Source: a virus
Direction: 5' to 3' (one strand)
Virus record (IMG/VR): IMGVR_UViG_3300022752_004607
Coordinates: 1 to 31,064 of that record
DNA: 31,064 bases
The stretch's first letter is position 1. Each line of letters begins with the position of its first letter. Below the pieces are notes generated by a model, which saw only the letters and a program-made list of their open reading frames with translations, was not told the DNA's origin and searched no databases. Shown in pieces: positions 3,140 to 28,900 of this stretch. The position numbers were made by a program, and so were the translations under genes.

Positions 3140-3889
3140 TTAAGCAAATGTTTCAGCTAAAGCAAACAATTGTTTATTCAATAAAATATCGTCGCTAGCG
3201 TTATTAACAGTTGATGTTAGGTTTTCTTGGATACGGTTGAACACTGTCCATAAATCGTTTCCTTCATCTTCGATTCGATTAACTGCAAGTATATCATCAA
3301 TATTAATATTTGATATATCATTGTATCTCAACTTAGCTGCTTCGTAAGCTAACTCTCTCATTTCTTTTACTGATAGGTTTGAATGTTTTAGTTTTTCAAA
3401 TTCATTTAATACTAAAGATGATTTACGATTAACAATGTTTAAATATTGATCTAAGTTTTTATAGTTAATTTCGGTATGTTTGATTTTTTGTGTTTCTGCA
3501 GCTTCATCAAATCGTACTGCTCCGTTAGAGCAAATTAAACGATACATGCCCATTTCTAAATTAATCGGTTTGCTTCCGTTACAACTATTTGTAACTGTTA
3601 ACGATAGCAATGCTTCATCTTTACCTTTATTGTTTTTTATAGCAAAATCAGGATGCTGTAATCGAACAAAATTATGTGCAATTTTACGACCTTTACCTCG
3701 TTGTTCAGCAACACTGTTTATTTGCCATCCTTCATTTTGTAGTTTTGAAACTACATCTAGTGTAGGAATATAAAACTCTTTTTGTTTAATTCGTTGTACA
3801 TTTAGAATATTATTGTTATCTAACGTGTTAGCAAATGCAATTGCTTTGTTTAAGTCATTTCCGACTTGAATAAAATTTCTTTTTAACAT
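3140..3889 (-). CDS. DUF932-type phage/plasmid protein, copy 2
   Basis: 249 residues, paralogous to the protein at 1338-2141 by shared order and spacing of motifs: an N-terminal VVSKLQNEGWQINSV block (VIEDMEQLGWGVVDAK in copy 1), the FVRLQHPDF segment, the LTVTNSCNGS core and the EDEGNDLWTVFNRIQENL tail. It ends with LFALAETFA, matching LWELAESFM in copy 1. The start is AAAAGATATG, five bases after the 39-residue gene at 3895-4014. The family is widespread on mobile elements but functionally uncharacterised. Retaining two diverged copies suggests they are not redundant. Confidence 0.8.
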   Translation of the reverse strand: MLKRNFIQVGNDLNKAIAFANTLDNNNILNVQRIKQKEFYIPTLDVVSKLQNEGWQINSVAEQRGKGRKIAHNFVRLQHPDFAIKNNKGKDEALLSLTVTNSCNGSKPINLEMGMYRLICSNGAVRFDEAAETQKIKHTEINYKNLDQYLNIVNRKSSLVLNEFEKLKHSNLSVKEMRELAYEAAKLRYNDISNINIDDILAVNRIEDEGNDLWTVFNRIQENLTSTVNNASDDILLNKQLFALAETFA

Positions 3890-7887: not shown

Positions 7888-10194
7888 TTATTTTATTATT
7901 CTTTTAAAAGTTCCATCTTCATATACTTCAAGTATGATTCCTGTAGCATTTTCATCAATATCTTGACCTAATAAATTAGTACGGCGAAATATAACTTTAG
8001 TGTTACTTCTATTATCAATTAATATAGGATCAAACATTTCATAAGCACCATCTATATCATATTGAGTTAATCTGTAATAGTTGTATATAGGTTTAACTGT
8101 TGCATCTGTAACATCATAATGGAGTTCTTGTGTTGAATTACCTGCAGCTGCAGCTGTTGCTATTTCAGACCATATTATTCCATTTTCACTTTTTTCTACT
8201 ACAAAATGTGTCGTATTATATTCAGTAGCAGTTGCCCAATATATTAAATTATTACCATTTACTGGTTCACCAGAAAAATATAATAACTTAACTGGTAGTG
8301 CCCCCATTGTTATAATTAAAAATTGTTGTGTTTGCGTGTTGCATCCAAAGGCATTGGATACTTGAACTCGCACAGCACCATTAGTTGTTGTTTGTGGCCA
8401 TGTGAATGTTATGGTTGGTGAATTGGAATTAGGTATATTCGTCCATAACGGAGCAGACATTGTTTGTGTGTATGACCAAGCATAAGTAACTCCTGCTATC
8501 GGTGTAATCGAGTATGTCTCAGAGGTACCTGCAATAATATTGTTGTTTCCTGTCACACTGCTTACTACTGGAATACTAGGATTGACAGTAACATTGGTGT
8601 TAGTTGATGCGTTGCATCCATTTGATGAAACGGTGAGTGTATAGCTTTGTGTGGCATTGGGTGATGCCCACGGACTAGGTGCTGATGTATTTGTTAGATT
8701 AACATTAGGTGACCATGTGTATGTAATAGGAGCTCCTGCAGGCAATCCAGTCACCGTGCTAACAAGTTGAGTAGATGATCCTGCACAAATTGAATTAGAA
8801 ACCGGTGTTACCGTAACTTGGGGTAACGGGTTAACTACAATGGTAGTTGAAACGCAGTTTGTACTAAATAACCCAGAATTAAAATTTCTAGCATAGTATG
8901 TTGTAGTCGAGGTAGGTGTTACGCTTATTGAATTTCCTGTAGCAATTTGTCCTACTCCACACCCACTCGCAAACCAATAAACAGTACCACTTATACCATT
9001 AGCAGTTAATGTAGTCGACTGCCCAATGCAAATTGTATTTGCTGATGCTGTTATAGAAGTAGGATCAGGTGGTGGTGGAGTAGTGCAAATTAAACCTATT
9101 TGAAATGAGCTATTTGTGCTATACCCATGAACCAAAATATAATAATTAAGACCTGGAACTGATGTCCACTGGTAAGATGCAGAGGTTGTAGCGCACGATG
9201 GCCCCAAATCATCATTTCCCCCAACACAGGTCAGAGAAGAACAATTAGGTCCACTAAAAATGGAGATTTTGCTATCCCAAACGGTATTGCAAAGATAGGC
9301 CGTCATAATTTGACCGGTTCCTGTAATCTTAAACCAAACACCAGGCATAGTTTGGCTTACACCACAAGTATTATTCTCTCCAGTTCCGCTATTAGTTGCA
9401 TTAACAGTAGTAGCTGAGAGTAATTGGCCACACGATATTGCATACGCATTACATACCAAGTCGTTTACCGGAGCAGAAGGAGCCGAACAAGTTATACAAC
9501 TAACGGTTGATGTTCCACATAAAGACGCAGTTCCACAACCTGAACCTGTATTGTAATGAACATAGACAGTTCCAGTGTATGATGAAGCCCAGTTTAATGG
9601 TGCGTTTCCATAAGCAACGATTGGTCCGTTATATGTTCCTGTATGAATTGTAATATAACCTCCTAAACTATATCCAAACTGATACGTTTGTCCTGCAACT
9701 ATTCCTGATACGGTTGAATACTCACTTTGAAAGTTACAACTAGAAATGACAACCGTTGTAGGCGTGTTTGGAGCAACTGCTGAACCATATCCACTTGGAT
9801 TTGTGCAACCCGGGGTGACAGCGCCACAACTTCCTATACAAGTTTGTCCTAATGTAGTTGCAGTACCGGCTACGGGTTGAATAGTATTTAACAGGACAGT
9901 TCCTATGTTATTTACTATCTGAACTCTCATTTCAGAAGGCCATGACCCTGCAATTGTTCTAAAAACACGAATTGTTGAACCTGAAGATGCTGAGAAATTA
10001 TAGTTTAGTGGCCCAAACCCTGAAGCAAGTGTTATATTACTTAAAACTGTTACACCATTAACAGAAACAGAAACATAACCTCCGTTCCAACCATCTCCAA
10101 ATGTATCGGTAAGTTTAATGGTGTGGGTGCAAGTTTGTGATAATGTTAAAAGTGTTGTAAAAAATACAAAAACAGATAGCAAAAAATTCTTCAT
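7888..10194 (-). CDS. Secreted multidomain adhesin-like protein with T9SS-like C-terminal tail
   Basis: 768 residues. A signal peptide (about 1-19, cleavage near TLSQ/TC) is followed by a domain with FGDGWNGGYVSVSVNG of the kind common in Bacteroidota surface proteins. Next is a PVNDLVCNAYAISCG domain (about 235-370), then several Ig-like or PKD-like repeats beginning SITASANTICIGQST, a pre-tail region (PVKLLYFSGEPVNGNNLIYW) and a final RTNLLGQDIDENATGI-ILEVYEDGTFKRIIK, close in form to type IX secretion sorting tails. Many paired Cys suggest an exported, disulfide-bonded protein. Codon and base use look richer in GC than the neighbours. It may be a captured host gene acting as an adhesin, a decoy, or a host-range factor. 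Confidence 0.8.
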   Translation of the reverse strand: MKNFLLSVFVFFTTLLTLSQTCTHTIKLTDTFGDGWNGGYVSVSVNGVTVLSNITLASGFGPLNYNFSASSGSTIRVFRTIAGSWPSEMRVQIVNNIGTVLLNTIQPVAGTATTLGQTCIGSCGAVTPGCTNPSGYGSAVAPNTPTTVVISSCNFQSEYSTVSGIVAGQTYQFGYSLGGYITIHTGTYNGPIVAYGNAPLNWASSYTGTVYVHYNTGSGCGTASLCGTSTVSCITCSAPSAPVNDLVCNAYAISCGQLLSATTVNATNSGTGENNTCGVSQTMPGVWFKITGTGQIMTAYLCNTVWDSKISIFSGPNCSSLTCVGGNDDLGPSCATTSASYQWTSVPGLNYYILVHGYSTNSSFQIGLICTTPPPPDPTSITASANTICIGQSTTLTANGISGTVYWFASGCGVGQIATGNSISVTPTSTTTYYARNFNSGLFSTNCVSTTIVVNPLPQVTVTPVSNSICAGSSTQLVSTVTGLPAGAPITYTWSPNVNLTNTSAPSPWASPNATQSYTLTVSSNGCNASTNTNVTVNPSIPVVSSVTGNNNIIAGTSETYSITPIAGVTYAWSYTQTMSAPLWTNIPNSNSPTITFTWPQTTTNGAVRVQVSNAFGCNTQTQQFLIITMGALPVKLLYFSGEPVNGNNLIYWATATEYNTTHFVVEKSENGIIWSEIATAAAAGNSTQELHYDVTDATVKPIYNYYRLTQYDIDGAYEMFDPILIDNRSNTKVIFRRTNLLGQDIDENATGIILEVYEDGTFKRIIK

Positions 10195-10299: not shown

Positions 10300-10729
10300 A
10301 AACGTAGGAGGATTGACGGGTTAATTACTATTTGATGTTATCCGTTTACAATTTGTCGTTTTGGTTCTTTAAGAGTTCCAGATGATACGACTTTATCAAT
10401 TCTGGAATCAATATAGCGGCGAGTTTCGTCGATATCACGGTGAAGAACTGTTTCAAGTACATGTTCGTGTTTTTGAATTTCCTCAACCTCATTTTGAATA
10501 TGACGATGGGCGTCTTCTATCTCTTTATCAATTCTACGATTCATGTAATCGATATCTTGATGAAGATTAAACGTTGAACTATTTAATTGTTTTTCTAGTT
10601 TGATAATCTTAACCATACCTACAACAACAACAGTTAATATAATTACTGCTACAATCGTAAGCATGCCTAAAACAAAGTAAGTTGTTTCCATGTTTTTAAA
10701 ATTTAATATGTCAAAGAACTCCTACGTTT
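10300..10729. repeat. 11-bp inverted repeat flanking the 10338-10691 gene
   Basis: AAACGTAGGAG at 10300-10310 and CTCCTACGTTT at 10719-10729 are perfect reverse complements. The minus-strand message would begin with one arm, just after tRNA-Glu, and end with the other, which is followed by a run of T. No local partner for the 3' arm was seen, so a long-range panhandle is possible. Confidence 0.5.
10338..10691 (-). CDS. Membrane-anchored coiled-coil protein
   Basis: 117 residues. One membrane helix (about 5-28, VLGMLTIVAVIILTVVVVGMV) is followed by a long charged coiled coil with a repeated pattern: HQDIDYMNRRIDKEIEDA and HRDIDETRRYIDSRIDKV. A cytoplasmic or periplasmic stalk tethered to the inner membrane is predicted, the topology seen in spanin-like or exclusion proteins, though no family was recognised. 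It lies between the tRNA-Glu gene and the adhesin-like gene and is flanked by the 11-bp inverted repeat. Confidence 0.75.
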   Translation of the reverse strand: METTYFVLGMLTIVAVIILTVVVVGMVKIIKLEKQLNSSTFNLHQDIDYMNRRIDKEIEDAHRHIQNEVEEIQKHEHVLETVLHRDIDETRRYIDSRIDKVVSSGTLKEPKRQIVNG

Positions 10730-10730
10730 G

Positions 10731-10802
10731 TAGTCTCACGGGGAATTGAACCCCGCTTTTTAGGATGAAAACCTAACGTCCTAACCGATAGACGATGAGA
10801 CC
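10731..10802 (-). tRNA. tRNA-Glu (anticodon UUC)
   Basis: 72 nt on the minus strand. Acceptor GGTCTCA/TGAGACT (first pair G-U), D-arm GTCTATCGGTTAGGAC as in bacterial tRNA-Glu, anticodon stem TTAGG/CCTAA with loop TTTTCAT giving anticodon TTC, 4-base variable loop, and T-arm CGGGG-TTCAATT-CCCCG. Discriminator is A and CCA is not encoded. It suits the AT-rich phage, which uses GAA heavily. Confidence 0.95.
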
Positions 10803-10805
10803 CTT

Positions 10806-11171
10806 TTAAAATTTAAACACAACCCCTGTTGTGTTAAATATGTTTTTTCCGGTAATAAATACCTTTTGAAATACTTTAAAGTTTGGAGTAATATAAAATC
10901 GAGCCCGAATATCATATGCTCCAAAACTTAACCAATCTTCTGTTGTCAAACCATTTAAAAAAATATTACTGTTTAACTGAATACTTACTGTTATTTTAAA
11001 TCGTGGGAATGGATTATATAATAATATCCCATCATGTGTTTGAGGATAAGTAATATTTGCAAAATTTGCTCTAGCTACAGAATCTAAATTATATTGTTCA
11101 ATTCTTTTAAATGGTTGACTAAATCCCATCCAGGGAAATACTAACAATAAAATTAGTAACTGTTTTTTCAC
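10806..11171 (-). CDS. Small exported protein of unknown function
   Basis: 121 residues starting with GTG. A signal peptide (MKKQLLILLLVFPWMGFSQ, about 1-19) precedes a mature part with alternating strands (FKITVSIQLNSNIFLNGL, YDIRARFYITPNFKVFQK) ending in an aromatic residue (VVFKF), as outer-membrane beta proteins often do. The start overlaps the stop of the micro-gene above as GTGA, so translation is coupled. It may be a periplasmic or outer-membrane host-modifying factor. Confidence 0.7.
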   Translation of the reverse strand: MKKQLLILLLVFPWMGFSQPFKRIEQYNLDSVARANFANITYPQTHDGILLYNPFPRFKITVSIQLNSNIFLNGLTTEDWLSFGAYDIRARFYITPNFKVFQKVFITGKNIFNTTGVVFKF

Positions 11172-13599: not shown

Positions 13600-13753
13600 A
13601 TTCTTCTACTTTAAAAACATTTAAAAAATCATCTACAGGCATTTGTTTAATATCTGCTGCTGTTACGATAGCATCATGTAGACTAGCTGCTTGAAGTTTG
13701 CCTACTGGTTCCTTTTTAGGATCTAGTATATTATAATATATGAATTGTTTCAT
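13568..13753 (-). CDS. Small protein of unknown function
   Basis: 61 residues (MKQFIYYNILDPKKEPVGK). One short alpha/beta module with a basic tail (EEYERRKIQKSK). The start overlaps the stop of the glycosyltransferase above as ATGA, marking the downstream end of the coupled glycan cluster. The next gene begins inside it. No family was recognised. Confidence 0.65.
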   Translation of the reverse strand: MKQFIYYNILDPKKEPVGKLQAASLHDAIVTAADIKQMPVDDFLNVFKVEEYERRKIQKSK

Positions 13754-14508
13754 AAAATAAATTTTTGATTTGTATCTGGGTGGGAATAAATATAACTATT
13801 CCATTTATATTTTGCGTATTCATGCCCTGCTTGTTCTGCTTGTTGTCGTTTTTCTCCATTTGTTGAAACTGAAGCAAAGTGATAAAAATGGCAATTCCAC
13901 GTCCTAATCATCTTTAACCCTGAAATAGAACATTTTAAAAAGAAATCCCAATCGGCTACCATTCCAAGTTCATAATTTTCATCCCATCCACCTAAACGGA
14001 TGTAATCATATTTGTTCATGAAAATAGGTAAAGTTGAACCACACTCTTCTTTTTTGTTTCCTGAAGCATAGTGGTAGTCATATAACCAAAATTTTTCTAG
14101 GTCAAATATTTTTGGATCTGTACCTAAATTTTCAATATGAAATTGTTTAAATATAGAAGGATACGGTTCAATTTGGTTTGGAGAAATTACTGCTCCATCT
14201 TCCCATTCTTCTTCTAATGTAGTATCCCAAAATTTAGGAAACACGTTATCATCGTTTACAATTAATATTTTGTCATATTGGGCGTTATATACTCCTAAAT
14301 TAGTACCTTTACATAACCCAACATTTTCTTCTAAATTTAAAACATCTATATGTTCAGCCCATTTTTCAAGTACTTCTTTGTTGATGTCGTAAAAACCATC
14401 TACAACAGCTATGATTTGATTTTTGTTTTGTTGTCCCTCAATTGCAGAACGCAAACATAAATCTAGAGCATCGGGTGATTTATATGTTGGTATTATAACT
14501 GATATCAT
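13750..14508 (-). CDS. Glycosyltransferase family 2-like (GT-A)
   Basis: 252 residues from ATG 14508, which gives an ATGA overlap with the gene above; a longer reading to 14535 is less likely. The start MISVIIPTYKSPDALDLCLR is the classical GT2 nucleotide-sugar-binding strand. IVNDDNVFP supplies a DDN-type metal site and a later LGGWDENYELGMVADWDFF the acceptor and base region. It would transfer a sugar from a nucleotide donor in the cytoplasm. Last enzyme of the carbohydrate island. Confidence 0.85.
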   Translation of the reverse strand: MISVIIPTYKSPDALDLCLRSAIEGQQNKNQIIAVVDGFYDINKEVLEKWAEHIDVLNLEENVGLCKGTNLGVYNAQYDKILIVNDDNVFPKFWDTTLEEEWEDGAVISPNQIEPYPSIFKQFHIENLGTDPKIFDLEKFWLYDYHYASGNKKEECGSTLPIFMNKYDYIRLGGWDENYELGMVADWDFFLKCSISGLKMIRTWNCHFYHFASVSTNGEKRQQAEQAGHEYAKYKWNSYIYSHPDTNQKFIL

Positions 14509-15200
14509 ATTGTTTCGTGGTTTATTTTTTCCCAATTAATAGTTGGTGATAACAGCCCTTCCATACAATGTGTTGATAATCCAGGGATTGGGGAAAGGAT
14601 AAATCTAGATTTTTCTTCGGATATAGCTAACCATTTATTATGGTCACCTTCTAAAGATACATGGAAATTATAATCTTCTTTCCATAATTTTTTAAGGACA
14701 ATAAAACTTCCACAAGTGCTAGGAGTAGTTCTCCAATGACATTTATTTGAAACAAAAATCTTAGAAGTTAAATCATCATATAAAGGAAGAAAGTACTTAT
14801 CGTTATGGTCATAAAGAGTTAAATAATTTAATCCTTCAAAACAACTAAAAATATCTAAAACATATTCATCCCAATTATCAACATGAAGATAATCATTTTC
14901 TAAAAAATAAATCAAATCATCATCTTGGATAGTATCTAGGTCTAGAGCTATTTTAAACATTTGCCACCCCGCATCTCTCATATTACCTCCAGTTATTTCA
15001 TGAGAAATATATCGATCTTGGTATTTTTTAACCCAATTATCTTCAATTTTTCCATCCATAATCAAATGCAAATCTATATCTTTACCTTCTATAGTATTCA
15101 ATAGATTAATAAAACATTTTTCATAATCGAACCAATAGGGCCTTACTTTATTATCAGTTCCTGTGACATTATAATGGCTATAAAATATATGTATTTTCAT
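14505..15200 (-). CDS. Glycosyltransferase-like protein (GT-A)
   Basis: 231 residues, beginning MKIHIFYSHYNVTGTDN. A GT-A-like fold is suggested by the first strand and by DLIYFLENDYLHVDNWDEYV, where ENDY stands at the DxD position; later TCGSFIVLKKLWKED is typical of acceptor-side loops in sugar transferases. The DxD is weak (E-N-D), so activity or metal use may differ. It follows the propeller-type glycosidase gene by nine bases. Confidence 0.65.
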   Translation of the reverse strand: MKIHIFYSHYNVTGTDNKVRPYWFDYEKCFINLLNTIEGKDIDLHLIMDGKIEDNWVKKYQDRYISHEITGGNMRDAGWQMFKIALDLDTIQDDDLIYFLENDYLHVDNWDEYVLDIFSCFEGLNYLTLYDHNDKYFLPLYDDLTSKIFVSNKCHWRTTPSTCGSFIVLKKLWKEDYNFHVSLEGDHNKWLAISEEKSRFILSPIPGLSTHCMEGLLSPTINWEKINHETI

Positions 15201-15209
15201 ATTGTGAAT

Positions 15210-16139
15210 TTAATTAATTTTTTTACAAAATCCAAATCCTTCTTTACCGTATCCATTTCCACTATAAAACATTAGTAATTGTTTTTGGATTTCAATAATA
15301 TAAGGGTAACAAACCATTTCACTATCCCATCCATTTTCTGAATTAGTTATGGTATTGAGGTGATCTTGGCGTTCCCAATTTAATTTATCTAGGGATGAGG
15401 CATATCCCATTTTATAATTTTCTCCTTTATCAAGTTTTTCTCTATACCCATACCACATATGGTATTTATTATTTATTTTTTTAACACAAGGCGCACCTAA
15501 TGTTTCATTGTTATGGGTAGGGAAAACACAAACATTATCATTAAATTCCCAATCCAATCCATTAAATGATGTAGCAAATCTAATATCATATGTAGGTCTA
15601 TAATGGTTATTTATGTTAGCCCAAGAATTATAATGAGTATACCACATATTGAATTTTCCATTTTCAATAAGGATACTAGATTTAGCTACCCCAAATGGGG
15701 AAAAACGATTTAAACCTATAATAGGACCATCACTTATTTTTTGGAAATTAACTCCATCATCACTTAATGCTAATCCAAGAGTAGTAATATAAGGTACAGT
15801 ACTACTTCGTTGCCAACCTAAATAATATAACCAATATTTGTTTTTATAAAATAAAATTTCACTCATCATAGTACCATGTTCATCAAATGAACCGGGTTTC
15901 CCTAGGGAAAGTAATGGTTTGTTATGGATGGAGATAATTTTATTAGGGTCGTTTTTATCACAATCTAAAAAAGTAATTTTAGTTTCATAGTTTCCATTAT
16001 TATCTAAAATAGATCTAGTGGTAAAATATACCCTAATAAAATCATCAAATTCAATAGGACATACTTGAGCAGCATAATGGTTCATCCAATCAATATCTCC
16101 TTTAGGAGAAAATATTTGTCCTATTTTTGACCAATTCAT
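15210..16139 (-). CDS. Five-bladed beta-propeller glycosidase-like protein (GH43/GH32/GH130 type)
   Basis: 309 residues with repeated blade signatures: YWLYYLGW, FNMWYTHYNS, YHMWYGYREK and LLMFYSGNGYG. Family-like acidic positions are near DIDWMNHYAAQV at the N-terminus and SFDEHGTMMSE. Such proteins hydrolyse, phosphorolyse or transfer furanose or mannoside sugars. In polysaccharide gene clusters they are sometimes non-catalytic. No signal peptide, so it acts in the cell. The start overlaps the methyltransferase above as ATGA. Confidence 0.75.
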   Translation of the reverse strand: MNWSKIGQIFSPKGDIDWMNHYAAQVCPIEFDDFIRVYFTTRSILDNNGNYETKITFLDCDKNDPNKIISIHNKPLLSLGKPGSFDEHGTMMSEILFYKNKYWLYYLGWQRSSTVPYITTLGLALSDDGVNFQKISDGPIIGLNRFSPFGVAKSSILIENGKFNMWYTHYNSWANINNHYRPTYDIRFATSFNGLDWEFNDNVCVFPTHNNETLGAPCVKKINNKYHMWYGYREKLDKGENYKMGYASSLDKLNWERQDHLNTITNSENGWDSEMVCYPYIIEIQKQLLMFYSGNGYGKEGFGFCKKIN

Positions 16140-16705
16140 TTTTTAGTTATTTCAAGTATTATAGAGTCATATTGTCCTTTTTCTCTTAAATCAAAAACTT
16201 TATAATCACTTATATTTTCATCTACACTTTGCACTAAAAAATCTAATGATTCTTCAGGAGATAATTTATTGTCATTTTCATCTTTACACCCTATGTCTTC
16301 AATAATTAATTTCCCTCCAGATTTAAGTTTTTTAAACCAATGTTGAATTACATATTTTTGAGTTTCTGGGGTATGGGGGCCATCATCTATAATGAAATCA
16401 AAAGTATCATTTTCATATAAATCTAAAGCAAAATCAGTGTATGCATCTATTTTAGTAAAATGAATATTTGAATTAGATGGAATATATTGATCTATATCTA
16501 ATCCATAAATTTCTCCTTTAGTAAACCAACCACTCCACATTAAAAGTGATATACCTGATCTAATCCCTATTTCTAAAAGTTTAATATTTTGATGAGTTAA
16601 GTTATTGAAAACATTATCATAATATTCTGTTATATATGGGTGAGGGTCATATTTAGTATTATTAAACACTAAATTATTATTAATAACATATTCTGAAAGT
16701 TTCAT
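16136..16705 (-). CDS. Class I SAM methyltransferase
   Basis: 189 residues. Motif I is LLEIGIRSGISLLMWSG, followed by an acidic end of strand 2 (IYGLDID), motif for strand 4 FDFIIDDGPHTPETQ, and strand 5 GGKLIIEDIG. This is the Methyltransf_24 type found with sugar or macrolide methylases. It probably methylates a sugar hydroxyl. The start overlaps the dioxygenase gene by four bases (16705-16702). Confidence 0.85.
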   Translation of the reverse strand: MKLSEYVINNNLVFNNTKYDPHPYITEYYDNVFNNLTHQNIKLLEIGIRSGISLLMWSGWFTKGEIYGLDIDQYIPSNSNIHFTKIDAYTDFALDLYENDTFDFIIDDGPHTPETQKYVIQHWFKKLKSGGKLIIEDIGCKDENDNKLSPEESLDFLVQSVDENISDYKVFDLREKGQYDSIILEITKK

Positions 16706-17481
16706 TTATTTTTATTTTTTTTATCGTTATTTGCTTTTCTAATTAGCCTATAATCTAATGTAGATGTTGGAACCAATGAATCAAACCCCATTAACATATT
16801 TAAAAATGGATCCTTAGGTGCCTCAAAATTAAGCAATGCTGGGATGTCTATTTGTTGTTTGAATAGGTATTTAGTATATAAATGGTTAAGGCCTATTCTT
16901 TTTTCTTGGGAAATATTTATTCCTGTTCTATGGAATAGCATAGTATTAAATAAAAATACGGAACCTGCTTTTGATTCAATACTAATACCATGTTTAGAAA
17001 AATAATCGTCTGAAGGGATGTACTTGATTTTATGTGAATGGGGAAGTAATTGAGTAGCCCCTGTTTCAAAAGTAAAATCTGTAAGACAAAAGAAAGCATT
17101 TACTGCCAGTATAGGGTCACTTACATAATGCATGTTGGGGAAATCTCTATGCCATTTATTTTGACTATGAGTAAGATTTGGTTCAACCATTACTCCATTT
17201 TGTTGGCTTAAGATAAAATAATCTCCTAAAGTTTCTTTAATAAAAGGAATGATTTTAGGATTATTCAGTGTTTTATAAAAAACATCATCATAAGCGAATG
17301 GGGCCCTAACAATATTATTTTCAGCTATTTCTCTTATATCAAATTTATCCGAAACTTCTTGTTCTTGAATTTTCCAAGTTCTTTCAAGTTGAGTTATAAT
17401 TTCTTGAGTTTCTTCAGTTGTAAGAACATTTTCAATTAAAGTATAACCTAATATATCTAACTCTTCTAAATGATTTTTCAT
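16702..17481 (-). CDS. Phytanoyl-CoA dioxygenase-like Fe(II)/2-oxoglutarate oxygenase
   Basis: 259 residues. The Fe(II) triad is visible: H111-x-D113 in KWHRDFPN and H184 in MLFHRTGIN, with R195 (QEKRIGLNH) as the likely 2-oxoglutarate anchor. This PhyH family oxidises small molecules, lipids or sugars. In a glycan cluster it may hydroxylate or oxidatively tailor a sugar or its lipid carrier, but the substrate is unknown. Confidence 0.85.
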   Translation of the reverse strand: MKNHLEELDILGYTLIENVLTTEETQEIITQLERTWKIQEQEVSDKFDIREIAENNIVRAPFAYDDVFYKTLNNPKIIPFIKETLGDYFILSQQNGVMVEPNLTHSQNKWHRDFPNMHYVSDPILAVNAFFCLTDFTFETGATQLLPHSHKIKYIPSDDYFSKHGISIESKAGSVFLFNTMLFHRTGINISQEKRIGLNHLYTKYLFKQQIDIPALLNFEAPKDPFLNMLMGFDSLVPTSTLDYRLIRKANNDKKNKNK

Positions 17482-17491
17482 GGTTTATAAT

Positions 17492-18154
17492 TTAAAAATT
17501 AACTTCAAAAGCTATTTCATCCGTAAAGAACCAACAGTTATGGCAAAATATAACACGTTTATCTAATTTTTTAGCGCAGTCATTAACTGCTCTTTTAACA
17601 GAATCCCAAGTATAATCATCACCAGTTAATTGAGCATTAGGCCAATTTTCATAACACATCATAATATCTCTAGTTACTCCTTCGTAGCTATGGTCAGCAT
17701 CGATGAATATTAAGTCAACAGGTAGATCATATGGTTTAACACTTTCTAAACCTGTAGGAGTTTTAGCTCTTATTGGGGTTAGATGATTACGGTGTTCCCA
17801 AGTATTGTAGATGAATGAGTCCCAAATTTTAGGGAGTTGAAGTAACTCAGGATCATTTTCTGCATATGTAGTTGTTCCACCATTTCCATGATCATCTACA
17901 TTTGGACTCCAATGGTCAAAACATAGAATGTGGGAATCAGGAGCCTGTTCTAATAAGAATTTAGTTGAACCTGTTCCTGTCCAACTTCCTAATTCAGCAA
18001 TGAATCGAGGTTTTAACCCTTGTATAAAATGTTTTAATACAGCAGCACTAGCTCCTGTAAACCACCCATTCACTTCAGGCATAATGTCTGGTTTTTGATC
18101 AGGCCATTGATACAATGACTTTACTTGTTTGATTTGTTCTTTTAATTTATCCAT
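17492..18154 (-). CDS. Class I SAM methyltransferase (Methyltransf_24-like)
   Basis: 220 residues. Motif I is FIAELGSWTGTGSTKFLLE, then ILCFDHWSPN, and a characteristic VDLIFIDADHSYEGVTRD block as in macrocin O-methyltransferase relatives; the DADHSYE acidic cluster often binds a divalent metal. It likely methylates a sugar hydroxyl. It sits between the acyltransferase and the dioxygenase genes with a gap of only two bases on one side and ten on the other. Confidence 0.85.
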   Translation of the reverse strand: MDKLKEQIKQVKSLYQWPDQKPDIMPEVNGWFTGASAAVLKHFIQGLKPRFIAELGSWTGTGSTKFLLEQAPDSHILCFDHWSPNVDDHGNGGTTTYAENDPELLQLPKIWDSFIYNTWEHRNHLTPIRAKTPTGLESVKPYDLPVDLIFIDADHSYEGVTRDIMMCYENWPNAQLTGDDYTWDSVKRAVNDCAKKLDKRVIFCHNCWFFTDEIAFEVNF

Positions 18155-18156
18155 TT

Positions 18157-18801
18157 TTATTTGATTTTTTTGGCTGGGGAGCCTATATATGTGCTATTTG
18201 GTTCGGTTGATTTGGTTACTACACTTCCCATTCCTATTATACAATTTTCTTCTATAGTAACCCCATCTCTTATACAGGAATTAACTCCTAAAAATGCTCC
18301 TTTTTTAATATGGCAATGTCCTGATATTACAACATGGGAGGTAAAGAATACATTGTCTTCTATTATTGAATGGTGACCAATATGGTTTCCACTCCATAAT
18401 ACAACATTATTACCAATTATAGTAAAAGGTTGTAGGGTATTATCTTCTAATATAAAACAATTTTCTCTAATTTCGGAAGCAAGATTAGTACATTTTGATG
18501 AAATATAAGATGTAAATTTGTATCCCATTTCTTTCCCTTCATTGTATATTTTTTCCCTTAAAACATTATCAGTTACAGGAGCAAATAAATAATATTCAGA
18601 TGAAGGATATAATTCATTTAAATCTTCAAAAGGAATTACAGGGAGTCCTTTAAATGTATCTTCTTTAATAAATTCCTTATTGACAGTAAATGCAACGGGA
18701 AGTGAATTATTATGTCCTAATTTAAATTCATGAAAGAAATAAAAATGGGCTAATTCTGCTAAATCATTTACCCCAAAAATAATAATGTTATTTGTAAACA
18801 T
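18157..18801 (-). CDS. NeuD/PglD-like sugar O- or N-acyltransferase (left-handed beta-helix)
   Basis: 214 residues from ATG 18801 (MFTNNIIIFGVNDLAEL); starts at 18816 or 18843 are possible. An N-terminal Rossmann-like domain (NIIIFGVNDLAELAHFYF) is followed by hexapeptide repeats from about residue 115 (IIGNNVVLWSGNHIGHH, then VVISGHCHIKKGAFLGVNS, then GVTIEENCIIGMGSVV), ending IGSPAKKI. This is the layout of NeuD and PglD, which acetylate sialic or diamino sugars with acetyl-CoA. The start overlaps the end of the methyltransferase gene above by 14 bases. Confidence 0.85.
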   Translation of the reverse strand: MFTNNIIIFGVNDLAELAHFYFFHEFKLGHNNSLPVAFTVNKEFIKEDTFKGLPVIPFEDLNELYPSSEYYLFAPVTDNVLREKIYNEGKEMGYKFTSYISSKCTNLASEIRENCFILEDNTLQPFTIIGNNVVLWSGNHIGHHSIIEDNVFFTSHVVISGHCHIKKGAFLGVNSCIRDGVTIEENCIIGMGSVVTKSTEPNSTYIGSPAKKIK

Positions 18802-19399
18802 ATGCTGTGTATTCATAAAGTTTATAATCGTTTCTAATAACAAAATTTCTACTTAAGTTATTTTTCAAAAACCATCCTAATTCATCTAAAGAAACATGAA
18901 ATAAATCATCTCGTTCCCAATCAACATGTTTGGACATTAAATTAAAAGCTATTCCTTTATCACATTTATTCCATAGTTTAATCAATGCTGAGGTAAAGAA
19001 TTCCATCATTTCCTCTTGGGTTAAATCTCTTTTTTCTGTGAATGTTCCATTACATACAATGTAATCAAAATTAGGTAGATTATCTTCTTGTAAAATATCT
19101 AAACAATAAAAATCTAAGTATGGATACTTTGCTTTACAGGTATCACAAAACCCTTTACTAATGTCTAACCCAGAATATTTAATATGAGGTAAAAGAGTAG
19201 TTGACTTAATATATTCAAAGAAATGTCCTAACCCACACCCAAAATCAAGAAGCGAACAATCTTGTTCTTTAATCAATTCTAACATGACTTCATGGCGAAT
19301 TAAAGTATCTTGATAATTAGGCCAATCAACTCCTAAATTACTATCTCCATGTTCTTGAAAACATTTATCATAATGTTCTGCTAATTTTAGATATTTCAT
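18788..19399 (-). CDS. Class I SAM methyltransferase
   Basis: 203 residues. Motif I is LLDFGCGLGHFFEYI, the acidic end of strand 2 is YSGLDISKGF, then FDYIVCNGTFTEKRD and a helical tail. The Cys in DFGCG is typical of small-molecule methylases. It resembles ubiquinone/sugar methyltransferases. The gene overlaps the WbqC-like gene by four bases and its 3' end holds the start of the acyltransferase. Confidence 0.85.
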   Translation of the reverse strand: MKYLKLAEHYDKCFQEHGDSNLGVDWPNYQDTLIRHEVMLELIKEQDCSLLDFGCGLGHFFEYIKSTTLLPHIKYSGLDISKGFCDTCKAKYPYLDFYCLDILQEDNLPNFDYIVCNGTFTEKRDLTQEEMMEFFTSALIKLWNKCDKGIAFNLMSKHVDWERDDLFHVSLDELGWFLKNNLSRNFVIRNDYKLYEYTAYVYK

Positions 19400-20064
19400 A
19401 TAAGAGTGTAATTTTTAAGTTGTTGTTGAATGTGTTCTTTAGGGTATCTAAAAAGCAAATCAAGTATTGAAGCGTATGGGTTATCAAAATCAACATCCCC
19501 CATTTGTATAAATTTAAGATCTATATTTTGGATAGCAAAATCTTCTTTAGTGTATAATTTTTTACCCCCAATAGCATTTATATAAGTACTTCCATTAAAA
19601 TGTTTTGTTATATCTTGTAAACCTTCATTCTTTTTTCTAATGGTAAGGCCTTCCGAGGAATCTATTATTTGGGTTGTAATACCAAGATAGTTACATATTC
19701 GTTTAATATAAAATAGATTAACTTGGGAAATTGAATACCCAAAACTACTTACATCAGTGATAAAAATTTGTTGGATTATATCTTTAAAATTTTTTTCCTT
19801 ACCATATAAATTATGTAAAGTTTTAGGAAAATTAACTATAAATTTGCCATCAGATTTTACTATAACTTCATTGCACTTTTTATTTTGGCTACCCCCAATA
19901 ACAGGAATATTAATTTGAGTATTGTTTTTTAAAGTGTTTCTAGTCATGTAACTTCGTTTCATAAAATTCACATGATCTAAATTAACATATGTATCAACAG
20001 CATCTATAAGTTGAAAATAACCTATATAGGGGAAAAAATAAGGTTGCATTATTCCTACCTTCAT
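19396..20064 (-). CDS. WbqC-like protein
   Basis: 222 residues with the family's start MKVGIMQPYFFPYIGYFQLI and internal VDTYVNLDHVNFMKRSYMTRN, as in WbqC, a family in O-antigen and capsule clusters. Its biochemistry is unsettled; proposals include glycine or amino-acid transfer to sugars. Next to a DegT-type aminotransferase it may modify the amino group. It overlaps its neighbours by one and four bases, so all three are coupled. Confidence 0.9.
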   Translation of the reverse strand: MKVGIMQPYFFPYIGYFQLIDAVDTYVNLDHVNFMKRSYMTRNTLKNNTQINIPVIGGSQNKKCNEVIVKSDGKFIVNFPKTLHNLYGKEKNFKDIIQQIFITDVSSFGYSISQVNLFYIKRICNYLGITTQIIDSSEGLTIRKKNEGLQDITKHFNGSTYINAIGGKKLYTKEDFAIQNIDLKFIQMGDVDFDNPYASILDLLFRYPKEHIQQQLKNYTLI

Positions 20065-20699
20065 TATCTATTAGCTTTGGTATAAACTTCAAATTTAGAT
20101 AGATCTGGGTAAGGGAGTTCTAGATCTTGATTAATTTTTTTAGTCCCATCATTATTATAAAACTGGTTCATTAAAAGTAAACCTCGAGCAGCTAATTCAG
20201 GCATCATGTAAAAATTCCAACCTAACATGTCAAAATAATCTTCATGATATGAACATTCTCTACGACCTGAGTATCTAGCTCTTTTAAACCACATATAAGC
20301 ATCTTCATTATCTGTTAAGATAGCTCCACCTTTAGATAATTTAAAATGTTTATAGGGGCCTGTAAATGAAATACACATATGTGTTCCTGGTTTATACATG
20401 TCTGCAGTAAAGCATAAAGCAGAATCCCATACATTTGTTGGTTCTAATTGGTATGCTCCTTTAAGGAATTTTCCTTTAACAGGTTTAAATTTTACTTTCC
20501 CCCCAGCATGGATAATTTCACATGGAACTGAGGGATAAGTACGAGATGGGATTGTAATTTCTTGTCCTTTAATATTTTCATACATTAAAGCTAGGAATAA
20601 AGCATTTGATTGGTTATCTACAGTTACAACATAAGGTGCTCCTGTATAGTCTGAAAGTGCTTTTTCAAATTCAACTGTTATATCATATACGTTTTTCAT
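20064..20699 (-). CDS. Short DegT/DnrJ/EryC1-type PLP sugar aminotransferase
   Basis: 211 residues, against about 370-400 for the family. The N-terminal PLP domain is complete: DNQSNALFLALMY, a PSRTYPSVPCEIIHAGG substrate-side strand, and the lysine block SFTGPYKHFKLSKGGAILT with K117 as the likely PLP lysine. The usual C-terminal small domain is missing, and no frameshift is evident because the next gene begins cleanly. It could work as a homodimer, act as a sensor, or be a fragment. AGGTTATG start. Confidence 0.75.
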   Translation of the reverse strand: MKNVYDITVEFEKALSDYTGAPYVVTVDNQSNALFLALMYENIKGQEITIPSRTYPSVPCEIIHAGGKVKFKPVKGKFLKGAYQLEPTNVWDSALCFTADMYKPGTHMCISFTGPYKHFKLSKGGAILTDNEDAYMWFKRARYSGRRECSYHEDYFDMLGWNFYMMPELAARGLLLMNQFYNNDGTKKINQDLELPYPDLSKFEVYTKANR

Positions 20700-20711
20700 A
20701 ACCTAAATATA

Positions 20712-22256
20712 TTAATTTTTTAATGAATTTCCAAATTTGTTTAATTCATTTTGAAAATTTTCATGAGCTATTTTTTTAAATTCATCCTGTCTATTTATTA
20801 CTTTTAAATAGTTTTTATATGGGTTAAATCTAAATAATTGATCTTCTACTACTACTTCATTTTCAAGAATGTACTGGGTGATAGGGGTTCCATTTTGTTT
20901 GAGCATTTCAAAGCAACACATCAAATATGTGTCTTCTAATCCATAATGTCCTAATTCTTTAGGTATATTCACCATTTTAGCTAATTCAGAACTAATAACT
21001 GTAGCTAAACCACCTCCAAATTTAAAAATACTTATAGGTTGGAGACTAACATCACCAAAACAATTAGAATATCTATATGGGTCTCTAAATTTAAATAAAT
21101 CTCCAGATTGTTCATGGTGGTAACTTGGATGTACTAATACTTTCCAACTATCATCCCATAATGGGGAAATTTGAGGAGTTAAAATATAGTAAGGATTTTC
21201 TATTACTTTAATAGAACTAAGAACATGGAATAATAGATACGGGGATATTACAATATCAGCATCTATGGTAAGAAGAGCTTTTGAATTAGTATTTTTAATA
21301 ACCTCTCTTCTATGAGAAACACATCCTAAAATTGTTTGGTTATCATTTGCTTTAAAATCAGTAATTGCCCAAGTTTTAGTTAAACGTTCTAGTTGAAATA
21401 ATTTATCAACAAAATATGATTTAGGGAATGTTGAATTATCCCAATCTACTAAATTTAAATTTAATAAAACATCAACTAATATAGTGTCTTCTTCTGTTAA
21501 AAATTTAGAATTGTGTTTTAATTGTGTTAAAAGAACTTCTAATTGATCAATTTCATATGGCATTACATGAATTAATATATGTAGATCAATTTCATTTAGT
21601 ACTTCTTTACATTTTTTTACAAAACGATTTGTATGTTCACTATTATTTCTAGATTCAAAATTATGAAATATTAAGTCTTCATATGTGCTAGCAATGCCAA
21701 AATATGTTTCATTTTTTAAAGGCCAATATGGGACTTCACAATTTGAAAATTTAAAAAATTTAATTTCAATACCTTTTTCTCTACTAAGATAACTAAGTTC
21801 CTCAGCAACATCACTTCTAAGAGTTTCATTGTATGCAGGTTGTCCTAATTCGTTATACGTTTCTTTAGAAATAGCAAAACAAGCAGGACCAGCATATGGG
21901 ATAGTATCAGGTAAACGGTTTGAATGTTGTTCAATTCCTATAATAGCATGTTTTCCATGGATTCGATCAAGAATTACATCTATGAAATTAGATTTTAATG
22001 GAATAGCATCTGCATCAAAGAATATTAAATAATCAACATCTTCATTTCGAGAAAGTTCTGTTAATAATGTTCCATGTGAATTAAATCCTTTATTAAGTAA
22101 ATTAGGTTCTACTAGGATTTGATTAATTTCAATACCAAATTTATCAAATACTTTCTTTTGATAAGAAATAAATCTAGGATCTAAACTAGCAAAGTATGCT
22201 GTGTAAATACCTATTTTAAAATCTTTTCCATTTCTAATTATGTGATTATATTTCAT
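20712..22256 (-). CDS. Two-domain glycosyltransferase (two GT-A units)
   Basis: 514 residues. The first half has a GT-A start (KIGIYTAYFASLDPRFISY) and metal site FFDADAIP; the second has ALLTIDADIVIS and GLEDTYLMCCFEM, a typical GT2 acceptor/base motif. Two DAD sites mean two active sites, probably adding two residues in turn, like bifunctional chondroitin or capsule polymerases. Its start overlaps the GT2 gene above by four bases and it lies 12 bases before the aminotransferase. Confidence 0.75.
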   Translation of the reverse strand: MKYNHIIRNGKDFKIGIYTAYFASLDPRFISYQKKVFDKFGIEINQILVEPNLLNKGFNSHGTLLTELSRNEDVDYLIFFDADAIPLKSNFIDVILDRIHGKHAIIGIEQHSNRLPDTIPYAGPACFAISKETYNELGQPAYNETLRSDVAEELSYLSREKGIEIKFFKFSNCEVPYWPLKNETYFGIASTYEDLIFHNFESRNNSEHTNRFVKKCKEVLNEIDLHILIHVMPYEIDQLEVLLTQLKHNSKFLTEEDTILVDVLLNLNLVDWDNSTFPKSYFVDKLFQLERLTKTWAITDFKANDNQTILGCVSHRREVIKNTNSKALLTIDADIVISPYLLFHVLSSIKVIENPYYILTPQISPLWDDSWKVLVHPSYHHEQSGDLFKFRDPYRYSNCFGDVSLQPISIFKFGGGLATVISSELAKMVNIPKELGHYGLEDTYLMCCFEMLKQNGTPITQYILENEVVVEDQLFRFNPYKNYLKVINRQDEFKKIAHENFQNELNKFGNSLKN

Positions 22257-22876
22257 AACTGGTCGTATAACTGATTTTGTTTTTCTTGTCGTTTAATTGT
22301 TTTTGAATGATAAAGTGCAAAGTATTCTACATCGGGCATTGCTGTATACTGTTTAAAACCATCTAAACGCTCGTGTACTTTATTTACCCATACGATTTCA
22401 GGTTTATTTTTCCAAATACGCCATTGGTAATCAGGCCAATTAACCCATCCAGCATCGTTTACTCTCCAGCCCCATTTTTGAATGTGTTCGGAAGTTAAAC
22501 CTTCTACTGTGTTTACTCGGGGTACTAGAAAAACATCAACTTCGTTGTTTTCTTCTAATACTTCAGGTAACACAGCAATCAGATTTTCGTTAGGAATTTC
22601 ATCAGCATCAATTTGAAAAATATAATCGCCATTACAAAAACCAGATAATTTGTTTTTCCAGTCTGCAAAGTGGCGATCAAATTTTCCTTTGTGCCAAGAG
22701 AACTCACCGTTTATAGAATGGGTTCTTAAGAAATTTTCCACTTCGGGGTCACCATTTGCTTCATCAAATAAAATTACTATATTGTCTTGTATACGTTTGT
22801 GTTGAAGCAAAAAATTCACTAAACGTTGAATTTCAACAAATTCATTACAGACTGTGATTGCATAACTAATTTTCAT
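22253..22876 (-). CDS. Glycosyltransferase family 2-like
   Basis: 207 residues beginning MKISYAITVCNEFVEIQRLV, with DYIFQIDADEIPNENL (DAD metal site) and VNWPDYQWRIWKNKPEIVWV, a pattern seen in GT2 enzymes of the WaaE/KdtX kind that add heptose or glucose to LPS cores. It is shorter than WaaE. Acts in the cytoplasm on a nucleotide sugar. Confidence 0.85.
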   Translation of the reverse strand: MKISYAITVCNEFVEIQRLVNFLLQHKRIQDNIVILFDEANGDPEVENFLRTHSINGEFSWHKGKFDRHFADWKNKLSGFCNGDYIFQIDADEIPNENLIAVLPEVLEENNEVDVFLVPRVNTVEGLTSEHIQKWGWRVNDAGWVNWPDYQWRIWKNKPEIVWVNKVHERLDGFKQYTAMPDVEYFALYHSKTIKRQEKQNQLYDQL

Positions 22877-22881
22877 ATATC

Positions 22882-23346
22882 TTATTCAGGTAATATCCCA
22901 ATATAAGAAAGAGCTTCAATATAGTCACGCTCTTCAAACATTTTCATGTTTTTCATATCCATTTTGAATTTCATAAATTCTCCTGGTTTTCCTGGAATTG
23001 GGTGTTTTTCTCTGTCTTCTTCAGGGATTTCAATAGCTTTAACAGCTGCCCACCCCCAATTTGAAATACTTGAACCATTAGCAAACACCATACCTTGCTC
23101 AGGATTGTTAATAGTGTTTGGTAACCATATTAATCCTGTTTCAGGATCAGTCCAAGCTAAATCTTTATACAATTCAGGTAACGTTTCCATTTGTTGTTTG
23201 TAAAACTCATGGTCTTCGGTCATAAATGAGTTTGTCCAAAATCCACAAGATAAACTCATGTAGTTATATATTTCAGGGGCAACCTGTACTTTATAGCACA
23301 AGTTACCTCCTGATTTAGGGCAGTCAATTATTTCTTCGTGTTGCAT
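22882..23346 (-). CDS. Unknown protein within the glycan island
   Basis: 154 residues, with no family recognised. A pair of cysteines in IIDCPKSGGNLCYKV could bind metal, and an N-terminal part is rich in aromatic residues (YNYMSLSCGFWTNSFM). The acidic and Met-rich C-terminal half (MKFKMDMKNMKMFEERDYIE) is probably helical. It overlaps the start codon of the 430-residue glycosyltransferase by one base, so it belongs to the same transcript, but it shows no carbohydrate motif. Confidence 0.7.
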   Translation of the reverse strand: MQHEEIIDCPKSGGNLCYKVQVAPEIYNYMSLSCGFWTNSFMTEDHEFYKQQMETLPELYKDLAWTDPETGLIWLPNTINNPEQGMVFANGSSISNWGWAAVKAIEIPEEDREKHPIPGKPGEFMKFKMDMKNMKMFEERDYIEALSYIGILPE

Positions 23347-24638
23347 TAGGCTTCTACTTTTTTAAGTTTTGGTAATTCAATTTTTTTCAACTTAGGTAAC
23401 TGTAATTGTACCTGTTTTGGAAATTCAGGAATTTTATCTTCAAACAATTTACCTAATTTTTCTTTCATAGCATCAAATGAAAATTTGGTACGTGATTGAA
23501 AACCTTGTCGTTTTGCTTTTTCAGCATATCCTTTATAGTTTTCAAATACATCTTTTAAATAACTTCCTACATGACCTGTATCAACACTAAACCATTCTGC
23601 ATCCGCTAATAACATATTGTTTGCTGCTGAAGGGTGTACTTTGGTTAAGTTACCTGGTAAAAGTGTAACAAATTCAGGGTTTAAATAGTCAATATGGCCA
23701 CTCCAATTTGTTGTAATGATTGGTTTATTTACTAATGAAAATTCAAGTAATGGACGACCAAATCCTTCTCCTTTAGTTAAATTAACCATTGCTTTAACTT
23801 TAGGGTGGTTATAGATTTCGTTCATTTCTACATCTGTAAATTCACCATGTAACAAATAAACGTTTGGTAAATTATTTGATCTTACTGTTGCTTTAATTGC
23901 TTGAATACGTTTAATTAATTCATCTCTATCTATATAAGAGGATCCTACAGTTGATGTTTTTAAAATCAAGGCAGGTTTTTTAGTTTTGTTTTTAAACGTT
24001 TCGTAAAACGCTTTTACTAATAATCCTACATTTTTTCTATCTTCACCTAAATGTCCTTGCATCCAATGTCCTACAAACAAATAAGCAAATTCTTCTTTTA
24101 CATTCGATAAATCAAATGTTGATTTTACGGGGGTATATTTTTCAGTGTCTGCACCTTCAAAAATTACTTCACTATCACCTTTCCATTCAATAAACCCTAC
24201 TGTTTGGTTTGTTTGTTGATCGCGTTTTTCAAATTTACTTTCTTTTAATACTTTAATAGTATGTTCAGAAGAACCTAAAATTAAATTCATCCGTGAACAA
24301 CCTTCAATCCATTCAGCGGGTGCAACTGTTGTTTCAATTCCAGCTGTACATCCAATATTGTATTTTCCTACTGGTTGAAATTCATTTGGAACTGTAATTT
24401 GCATCCAAATTTCAGGTTGTGATGGTAATTGTGGTTGTTGTAAGATATGACTCACTAAAAATTCCCACTCTGGATTATCTTTAATAAATCCAAATGGAGT
24501 ATTTCCCCATCGTTGAGGTGCAATTTTTACATCATACTTATCTAGTTCAATAATCGCTTTAACGATATCGCGAGAACGTGCTCCATATCCTGAATATGTG
24601 TCGATAGGGCAGCTTATTACAAATGTTGGTTTACTCAT
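23346..24638 (-). CDS. GT-B glycosyltransferase (GT4-like)
   Basis: 430 residues. The C-terminal half has the GT4-type donor site VNLTKGEGFGRPLLEFSLVNKPI, with the E-x7-E spacing, plus FVGHWMQGHLGEDRKNVGLL typical of the loop after the first strand. It carries an N-terminal PIDTYSGYGARSRDIVKA, an acceptor-domain motif. The C-terminal tail contains repeats of lysine, leucine and proline (KKIELPKLKKVEA). Follows the 479-residue GT by five bases. Confidence 0.85.
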   Translation of the reverse strand: MSKPTFVISCPIDTYSGYGARSRDIVKAIIELDKYDVKIAPQRWGNTPFGFIKDNPEWEFLVSHILQQPQLPSQPEIWMQITVPNEFQPVGKYNIGCTAGIETTVAPAEWIEGCSRMNLILGSSEHTIKVLKESKFEKRDQQTNQTVGFIEWKGDSEVIFEGADTEKYTPVKSTFDLSNVKEEFAYLFVGHWMQGHLGEDRKNVGLLVKAFYETFKNKTKKPALILKTSTVGSSYIDRDELIKRIQAIKATVRSNNLPNVYLLHGEFTDVEMNEIYNHPKVKAMVNLTKGEGFGRPLLEFSLVNKPIITTNWSGHIDYLNPEFVTLLPGNLTKVHPSAANNMLLADAEWFSVDTGHVGSYLKDVFENYKGYAEKAKRQGFQSRTKFSFDAMKEKLGKLFEDKIPEFPKQVQLQLPKLKKIELPKLKKVEA

Positions 24639-24643
24639 AACTT

Positions 24644-27349: not shown

Positions 27350-28003
27350 TTAAAGTTGGGATTCAATATAATCTTTTACTTCTTGACTTACATCATCAGC
27401 ATCTGGGAATTCATCATCAAATTCAACTAAGATATTATCTATAATGTCGGTATCAAAGAACCCTGCATCTATTAAGTCTTCTAACTTTCCATCTTTTTTA
27501 GCACTTTGAATAGCATCATCAATGTATGCCTTTATTTTTGAAGTTAATGGGATTTCATCTGGGGATTCATCTTCAGGTTTTTCATAAAAATCTTCTATAA
27601 CTTTTCTATACATTCCTATGGTGATACCTTCAATTGGGACATTTGGGTTACCTAGTGATTCATAATCATCTTCTGTTCCTGGGTAAGCAAAGTCAGTAAA
27701 CTCACCAGCCACATCCAAAGATTCTTCACCATATCCTAAAAATTCACAAAATTTAACTACATTTTCATGAATCCATAGATATTCATAGTCGTCATCATAA
27801 AGATCTTCAGGAGTTCTTTTTCTAAATAATATCCCAAGTGCTTTATTTCTGTCATCAAACATGGTGTTAGAAGCTTCATTTAATTTAGCTTTATATTGAC
27901 TTTCAGTAATGATACCAGCCAACATTTGCATACGTAATAGTTCTTGTGTCATTTTATCTAGATTTTTATTATACATATGAGCAACTGTTAATTTGTTTAC
28001 CAT
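27350..28003 (-). CDS. Putative virion-internal protein with shared N-terminal motif, acidic
   Basis: 217 residues. Residues about 23-44 read LRMQMLAGIITESQYKAKL, a motif shared with the proteins at 28069 and 28900. After it the protein is acidic (DLYDDDYEYLWIHENV, FDDEFPDADDVSQEV) and has no membrane segment. The I-T-E site within the motif fits the (I/L)xE cleavage pattern of T4 prohead protease, so it might be a capsid-targeting sequence removed on maturation. Bounded by terminators at both ends, so it is a self-contained unit. Confidence 0.65.
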   Translation of the reverse strand: MVNKLTVAHMYNKNLDKMTQELLRMQMLAGIITESQYKAKLNEASNTMFDDRNKALGILFRKRTPEDLYDDDYEYLWIHENVVKFCEFLGYGEESLDVAGEFTDFAYPGTEDDYESLGNPNVPIEGITIGMYRKVIEDFYEKPEDESPDEIPLTSKIKAYIDDAIQSAKKDGKLEDLIDAGFFDTDIIDNILVEFDDEFPDADDVSQEVKDYIESQL

Positions 28004-28666: not shown

Positions 28667-28900
28667 TTACTTAATAATTCCAGCTCGTATTTGAAGCATT
28701 TTAATTTCTTCAATATTTTCAGGAGAACTAACAATCATGTTATAGTCATTCATAGTTAATACTTTTCCTGAAAGTGCTAAACCGATTGCGTTTTCTGTTA
28801 CGTTATGTAGGTCTATATCGGTTTGAGCATCTTCTCTAGCGTATTCGAGTAAACGAATAAATAGAGGGACGTCTACTGTGATTGTATCTCTTTGGTTCAT
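28667..28900 (-). CDS. Small helical protein of unknown function
   Basis: 77 residues (MNQRDTITVDVPLFIRLLEY). A compact all-helical fold similar to small phage proteins of this length. Its last residues IKMLQIRAGIIK resemble the LRMQMLAGIITE motif of its neighbours, possibly by chance. The start codon shares one base with the stop of the 319-residue gene (TAATG), so it is coupled. Confidence 0.7.
   Translation of the reverse strand: MNQRDTITVDVPLFIRLLEYAREDAQTDIDLHNVTENAIGLALSGKVLTMNDYNMIVSSPENIEEIKMLQIRAGIIK

Follow-up and report, generated by a model that had tools for sequence, protein, structure and literature searches.

We report a phage gene whose 768-residue product is, judging from its sequence, likely to be exported by Sec and then sorted through the host's type IX system (T9SS) as a non-enzymatic, adhesin-like protein by means of a short C-terminal tail, an estimate that covers both steps jointly. 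The reading of this tail as a sorting-type unit is well supported by its exchange among phage relatives, its spread in bacteria, a hold-out profile and predicted structure, all of them sequence comparisons or models. These results suggest that viruses of this kind may redecorate infected cells via the host's own export machine. The gene lies in a 31,064-base IMG/VR virus record, a fragment of a phage genome, which is referred to below as the window.

The cargo gene and its product

A sequence-only reading of the window had pointed to a secreted protein of 768 residues at 7888..10194. The ORF proved to be real: it starts with ATG and runs on the minus strand (10194→7888), the plus strand across 7888..10194 holding many stops. 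The gene, the parts of its product and the adjoining upstream gene are:

7888..10194, minus strand: cargo gene, predicted surface-type protein that is secreted and ends in a short T9SS-like tail (768-aa ORF; relatives at 17 viral loci)
10138..10194, minus strand: signal peptide, residues 1-19, predicted cut between S19 and Q20 (sequence and heuristic; ..SQ start also in relatives)
9823..10137, minus strand: DTFGDGWNG beta domain, residues 20-124 (45-82% identity among phage relatives; Flavobacteriales proteins have one too)
9067..9822, minus strand: two more beta-rich domains, residues 125-376 (swapped en bloc in L009 and L155)
8827..9066, minus strand: Ig_7 domain (PF19081), residues 377-456 (Pfam E=3.5e-9, exceeding the gathering score)
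8308..8826, minus strand: Ig/PKD-like region, residues 457-629 (from the structure model; 541-629 poorly modelled)
8005..8307, minus strand: FN3-like domain, residues 630-730, directly before the tail (model pLDDT about 90; structure comparison Z up to 11.5)
7891..8004, minus strand: short CTD-like tail, residues 731-768 (N-x-LGQ-x-I, 5-aa gap, GIILEV, FKRIIK)
10338..10691, minus strand: 117-aa membrane and coiled-coil protein, directly upstream of the cargo gene, a possible neighbor (in L002 and L009, too, relatives lie next to the cargo gene)

Signal peptides were called with a simple heuristic. By this heuristic the N-terminus, MKNFLLSVFVFFTTLLTLS followed by Q, is signal-peptide-like (hydrophobic and basic, with S before Q at the cut), in agreement with the signal peptide proposed earlier, and only two of the 48 window proteins look signal-peptide-like, the cargo protein and a protein of 121 aa. 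The latter (10806-11171, minus strand) has a GTG start and a secreted-looking N-terminus (..WMGFSQ/PFKR) and matched no family. A lone tRNA-Glu(ttc) (10730-10802, minus strand) is located between it and the cargo neighborhood; the isolate Immutovirus immuto likewise carries a tRNA-Glu, near its phosphoesterase genes.

The predicted structure of the 768-aa protein is all-beta, and no enzyme domain was found by Pfam search or in the model. The Ig/PKD-like repeats of the sequence-only reading were borne out in part: the protein has one Ig_7 domain and, in the all-beta model, an FN3-like domain, but Ig_7 was the single domain matched and Pfam returned no PKD domain. A Foldseek search with the whole model recovered generic Ig chains only, the first being GhpA of Aureispira at a TM of about 0.2. 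The VIA-align match was limited to the FN3-like domain, with no T9SS CTD among the matches listed, and was uninformative on the tail. In Bacteroidota the same FN3-like domain stands before T9SS type A domains that are annotated as such. The C-terminus was exactly the RTNLLGQ...GI...YEDGTFKRIIK quoted in the earlier reading; within it N-x-LGQ-x-I resembles motif B, GIILEV motif D and FKRIIK motif E.

A GC and codon comparison, as the earlier reading had proposed, found the GC content of the gene raised (0.38 versus 0.31) and its GC3 (0.21) at the level of neighboring genes, so that there was no sign of recent arrival. A recent host gene was rejected on GC3 and synteny.

The phage and its cultured relatives

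The neighbors of the cargo gene are kept in order at two further loci, L002 (on a 166-kb contig) and L003 (on a 124-kb contig), mostly at 56-93% identity, and the position of the gene between phage genes is identical in three contigs. Besides a terminase, this 166-kb sister contig (G001) encodes tail tube and baseplate hub proteins and has two genes for the tail sheath. The cultured phages closest to the window are those of Immutovirus, with Flavobacterium sp. LMO8 as host. In the isolate, 18 window proteins were matched, mostly in order, including a glycosyltransferase cluster and HNH, DUF932 and phosphoesterase genes; the sheath of the sister contig is 49% identical to its counterpart there, and an exonuclease is 40% identical. 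Based on the synteny and structural genes shared with Immutovirus and the sister contigs, the window is part of a T4-like myovirus of Flavobacteriales that is related to Immutovirus, the host and its genus being presumptive. The suggestion that a Bacteroidota-type secreted protein is carried by a real phage was thereby upheld.

The isolate itself encodes a protein of interest, gp015 (YP_010114428.1), which is 243 aa long and cohesin-like, with a signal peptide and a TIGR04183 match at 44.8 bits. It belongs to a series of consecutive proteins with signal peptides, gp012-gp019 (L246:9935-16409). Annotations in this series include a nuclease, a C-type lectin and a cohesin-domain protein (the one with TIGR04183), and the C-terminal end of gp014 has a dockerin-like GDVNGTG.

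Three other features of the window were recorded. A cluster at 13750-26083 (minus strand) with glycosyltransferase, WbqC, DegT, NeuD-type and PhyH genes is syntenic with the region at 49-60 kb in Immutovirus, its middle being variable, and possibly serves surface or virion glycan modification. Two diverged DUF932-type paralogues lie close together (1338-2141 and 3140-3889, minus strand), and both match one immuto gene. The peptide LRMQML[AS]G[VI]ITES[QE]YKxK, which may serve in targeting or packaging, was found near the N-terminus of three otherwise unlike proteins (27350-28003, 28069-28632 and 28900-29859, minus strand) and in two further proteins of the sister contig.

The tail as a recurrent and exchangeable unit

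The tail was counted as 38 aa from the end of the FN3-like domain rather than from a cleavage site. AF2 predicted three strands in it (109-113, 127-132 and 137-141; pLDDT of the modelled region about 88-90) and no seven-strand sandwich of about 70-80 residues. Of 63 matched short tails, 51 had a B-D gap of 5 aa, compared with 17-39 aa in canonical tails (motif boundaries were set by eye), and 90 of 91 tails had a basic C-terminus, with K or R among the final 8 aa.

The earlier reading had likened the tail to type IX sorting domains and proposed a search with sorting-domain models. That search left the tail itself unmatched, literally the outcome that the earlier reading had named as refuting it: curated T9SS sorting-domain models in NCBIfam and Pfam gave no match, even at E=10 in NCBIfam, and the protein did not reach the curated cut-off of the type A CTD model (TIGR04183/PF18962). 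It did return TIGR04131 in a sister phage and TIGR04183 in the cultured relative. A hold-out profile built from 36 bacterial tails, with zero phage rows, scored the window ORF at 49.1 bits (E=1.1e-14) and all 80 viral proteins at E below 1e-6, although the bacterial loci behind it were recruited with phage tails as query and the sampling was thus not blind. Composition shuffles, 20,000 in all, scored 15.3 bits at most, so that the resemblance is not due to chance. Short tails of the kind described here and canonical tails, compared as profiles with hhalign, gave no significant match, and homology between the two is therefore not claimed.

Among phage relatives, the two kinds of tail appear on shared fronts. 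Six loci (L005, L006, L008, L010, L011 and L013) have a front in common with the window protein, at up to 93% identity, and end in a canonical tail; L008, for example, matches it at 82-93% identity over residues 1-376, yet carries a C-terminal TIGR04183 domain. The canonical-tailed relatives that were scanned match TIGR04183 or PF18962, some slightly above and some slightly below the curated cut-off. Conversely, L009 and L155 are 78-92% identical to the window protein over residues 457-730 and have different fronts. In both phages and bacteria the canonical TIGR04183 domain occupies the tail position behind the same FN3-like domain.

As for bacteria, a scan of genomes identified 522 relatives, the best 79 of which were in bins named almost all Bacteroidota. 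There the FN3-like domain is followed either by the short tail (54-59 residues past YYRLxQxD) or by a canonical one. Full-length tail matches were found in 17 Flavobacteriales-type genomes, the best E-values being at or below 3e-21, and many of these genomes carry several such matches on unrelated secreted proteins with frames of about 80-4,200 aa. Matches in Pontibacter, Flammeovirga and Pedobacter genomes were mainly to the front part of the profile. All 17 tail-bearing Flavobacteriales genomes encode SprA (SprA_N), a weak test given that 114 of 119 genomes of the class do so. Class-wide co-occurrence of tail and SprA was dropped as evidence; it is uninformative because SprA is present in 114 of the 119 genomes and the tail, at E<=1e-12, in 2.

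We give this evidence precedence over the missing curated-model match because the tail is exchanged among phages, is multiplied in bacteria, has a predicted short-CTD structure, and has curated CTDs as counterparts in sister and cultured phages. The likeness to a sorting domain noted earlier thus stands as far as the behavior of the tail is concerned, but not as a match to a curated family.

Spread in viruses and a type B partner

A scan with the tail region matched 328 viral contigs, and the best 80 of these 328 are all short-tailed, on many different fronts. The heuristic called signal peptides, with Q following the cut, in 50 of 58 distinct viral proteins that end in the short tail. A terminase was matched in 12 of 36 short-tail contigs of at least 40 kb; fragments account for some of the terminase-less contigs, and others may be misassigned. 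A search of INPHARED for an isolate phage encoding this short-tailed protein found none, and only the uncultured huge phage LR745206 was short-tailed there; it has four type B domains as well, and LR756500 has a TIGR04183 domain. The short-tailed ORF of LR745206 (L019:1745-3423) is split by a frame change into a PKD-containing front and a part with FN3 and tail, reflecting either a genuine frameshift or a fault of the assembly.

The sister contig G001 also encodes a partner of 819 aa with a signal peptide, SprB repeats (PF13573) and a TIGR04131 domain at 48 bits (cut-off 35). Its gene is located between the tail tube and baseplate hub genes, and its product matches a Hoc-like PHROG. Orthologues with 56-62% identity are present in G006, G007, G299 and G317, and in G007 and G299 they adjoin the short-tailed gene. 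The 31-kb window itself does not include the type B partner gene.

Proposed export and function

We propose that Sec exports the 768-aa protein, with the signal peptide cut before Q20 as predicted from the sequence, and that the 38-residue tail would act as a short type A-like CTD recognized by the host's PorV and SprA, so that the protein would pass the outer membrane. A PorU-type sortase would probably then remove the tail and anchor the protein on the surface. Export through the host's T9SS is well supported by these comparisons, recognition, cleavage and anchoring being steps that we infer. Export can be achieved with just the final 22 residues of a CTD (PMC4804311).

Once displayed, the protein, often with a type B SprB-repeat partner, might cover or occupy the T9SS-dependent surface where flavobacterial phages adsorb, so that superinfection would be reduced and fewer progeny lost on infected cells or debris. 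T9SS and gliding mutants of F. columnare (gld and spr genes) are phage resistant (PMC9233685), and gliding adhesins are proposed phage receptors (PMC13288928); a phage that loads adhesin-like cargo could therefore mask receptors. We advance masking of the infected cell against adsorption as a tentative reading, possible but below an even chance.

A serious rival is adhesion, in which the T9SS-displayed protein would stick infected cells or debris to cells or particles and so release progeny beside new hosts. The all-beta multidomain build without an enzyme domain, the SprB repeats of the partner, and the presence of GhpA, the Aureispira surface hook, among the weak best Foldseek matches are all in line with this role. 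However, the GhpA match has a TM of about 0.2 with low model confidence and Ig chains resemble many proteins, and we regard adhesion as somewhat unlikely to be the main purpose. Virion decoration, with the protein acting as a Hoc-like decoration or tail fiber and its secretion-like features unused, seems very improbable to us. T4-like Hoc proteins do match the Ig region, Ig proteins of this type can decorate virions, and the type B partner of the sister contig sits among tail genes and matches a Hoc-like PHROG. Against it, nearly all members have a signal peptide, their tails are interchangeable with curated T9SS CTDs, and the identical tail type is multiplied on bacterial secreted proteins; virion parts are assembled in the cytoplasm. 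The similarity to Hoc was set aside because of the signal peptides and the tail exchange.

The remaining alternatives concern the tail and the origin of the gene. The protein might be secreted by another route, with the short tail being no more than a C-terminal beta element, conserved and packed against the FN3-like domain, as would fit the absence of curated-model matches and the non-significant hhalign result; canonical TIGR04183 domains nevertheless fill the same place in phages and bacteria, and the strong fit to the published short-CTD layout also makes this improbable. That the gene belongs to a host and entered the contig by misassembly or contamination has hardly any probability left, even though proteins of this type are common in hosts: its position between phage genes is conserved in three contigs, members occur on terminase-bearing contigs, and the tail region is 75-77% identical to phage relatives versus 45% to the best full-tailed bacterial match.

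If export by the T9SS is correct, current annotation misses part of the T9SS cargo of Flavobacteriales, and phages of the phylum would reshape the surface of infected cells via a host exporter whose loss brings phage resistance in flavobacteria. We further consider it quite possible, if short of an even chance, that short CTDs form a widespread second class of T9SS signal in Flavobacteriales that is favored by phages, and that large phages run T9SS display, often with paired cargo (short or type A plus type B SprB-repeat), to control adsorption. The cultured phage-host pair gives a place to test the general idea.

Comparison with known systems

Cryophage encodes proteins with T9SS CTDs for which use of the host T9SS was presumed and superinfection exclusion proposed (Bellas et al. 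2020, PMC7468147). Phage-encoded T9SS cargo is thus not a new kind, and the novelty expected from the sequence-only reading does not hold to that extent. The Cryophage cargo comprises an endoglucanase, a GH39 protein and a PA14 protein with recognized type A domains, whereas that of the window phage is adhesin-like with a short tail missed by all models. As far as the searchable literature shows (most subscription papers and bioRxiv lying outside it), the short-tail class in phages and Flavobacteriales and the exchange of tail types are new, as are, within the same literature, the type B partner, the scale and the cultured relative. The single earlier report is hereby extended to hundreds of viral contigs and to a sorting tail that models miss.

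The short CTDs of Prevotella intermedia have one three-stranded sheet and a B-D distance of 1-6 aa, and their cleavage and glycosylation were measured (PMC11969387). They are about 40-55 residues long with motifs B-D-E, and the window tail, compared with this published description, agrees. It differs in its Flavobacteriales-type sequence (N.LGQEV..GI.I.VYEDGT.K), its location on a phage protein and its cleavage, which is predicted. P. intermedia is the only species reported with both CTD lengths (PMC11969387); the Flavobacteriales loci studied here likewise include short and canonical tails.

Compared with the canonical type A domain (TIGR04183/PF18962), which takes the same position after the FN3-like domain and replaces the short tail in sister phages, the window tail has no HMM match; the canonical domain has about 75-80 residues and a YPNP motif. 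Solved examples of type A CTDs have seven strands. The protein resembles T4 Hoc in its Ig-like domains and a weak sequence match. Hoc is a virion protein without signal peptide or CTD. The sister-phage partner shares its SprB repeats with type B/SprB gliding adhesins (TIGR04131, PF13573) and has a type B CTD that scores over the cut-off, but is much shorter than SprB. Finally, gp015 of Immutovirus immuto is, like the cargo protein, a signal-peptide protein of a phage, in this case from a cultured relative; its front is without homology to the window protein, and its tail is canonical TIGR04183.
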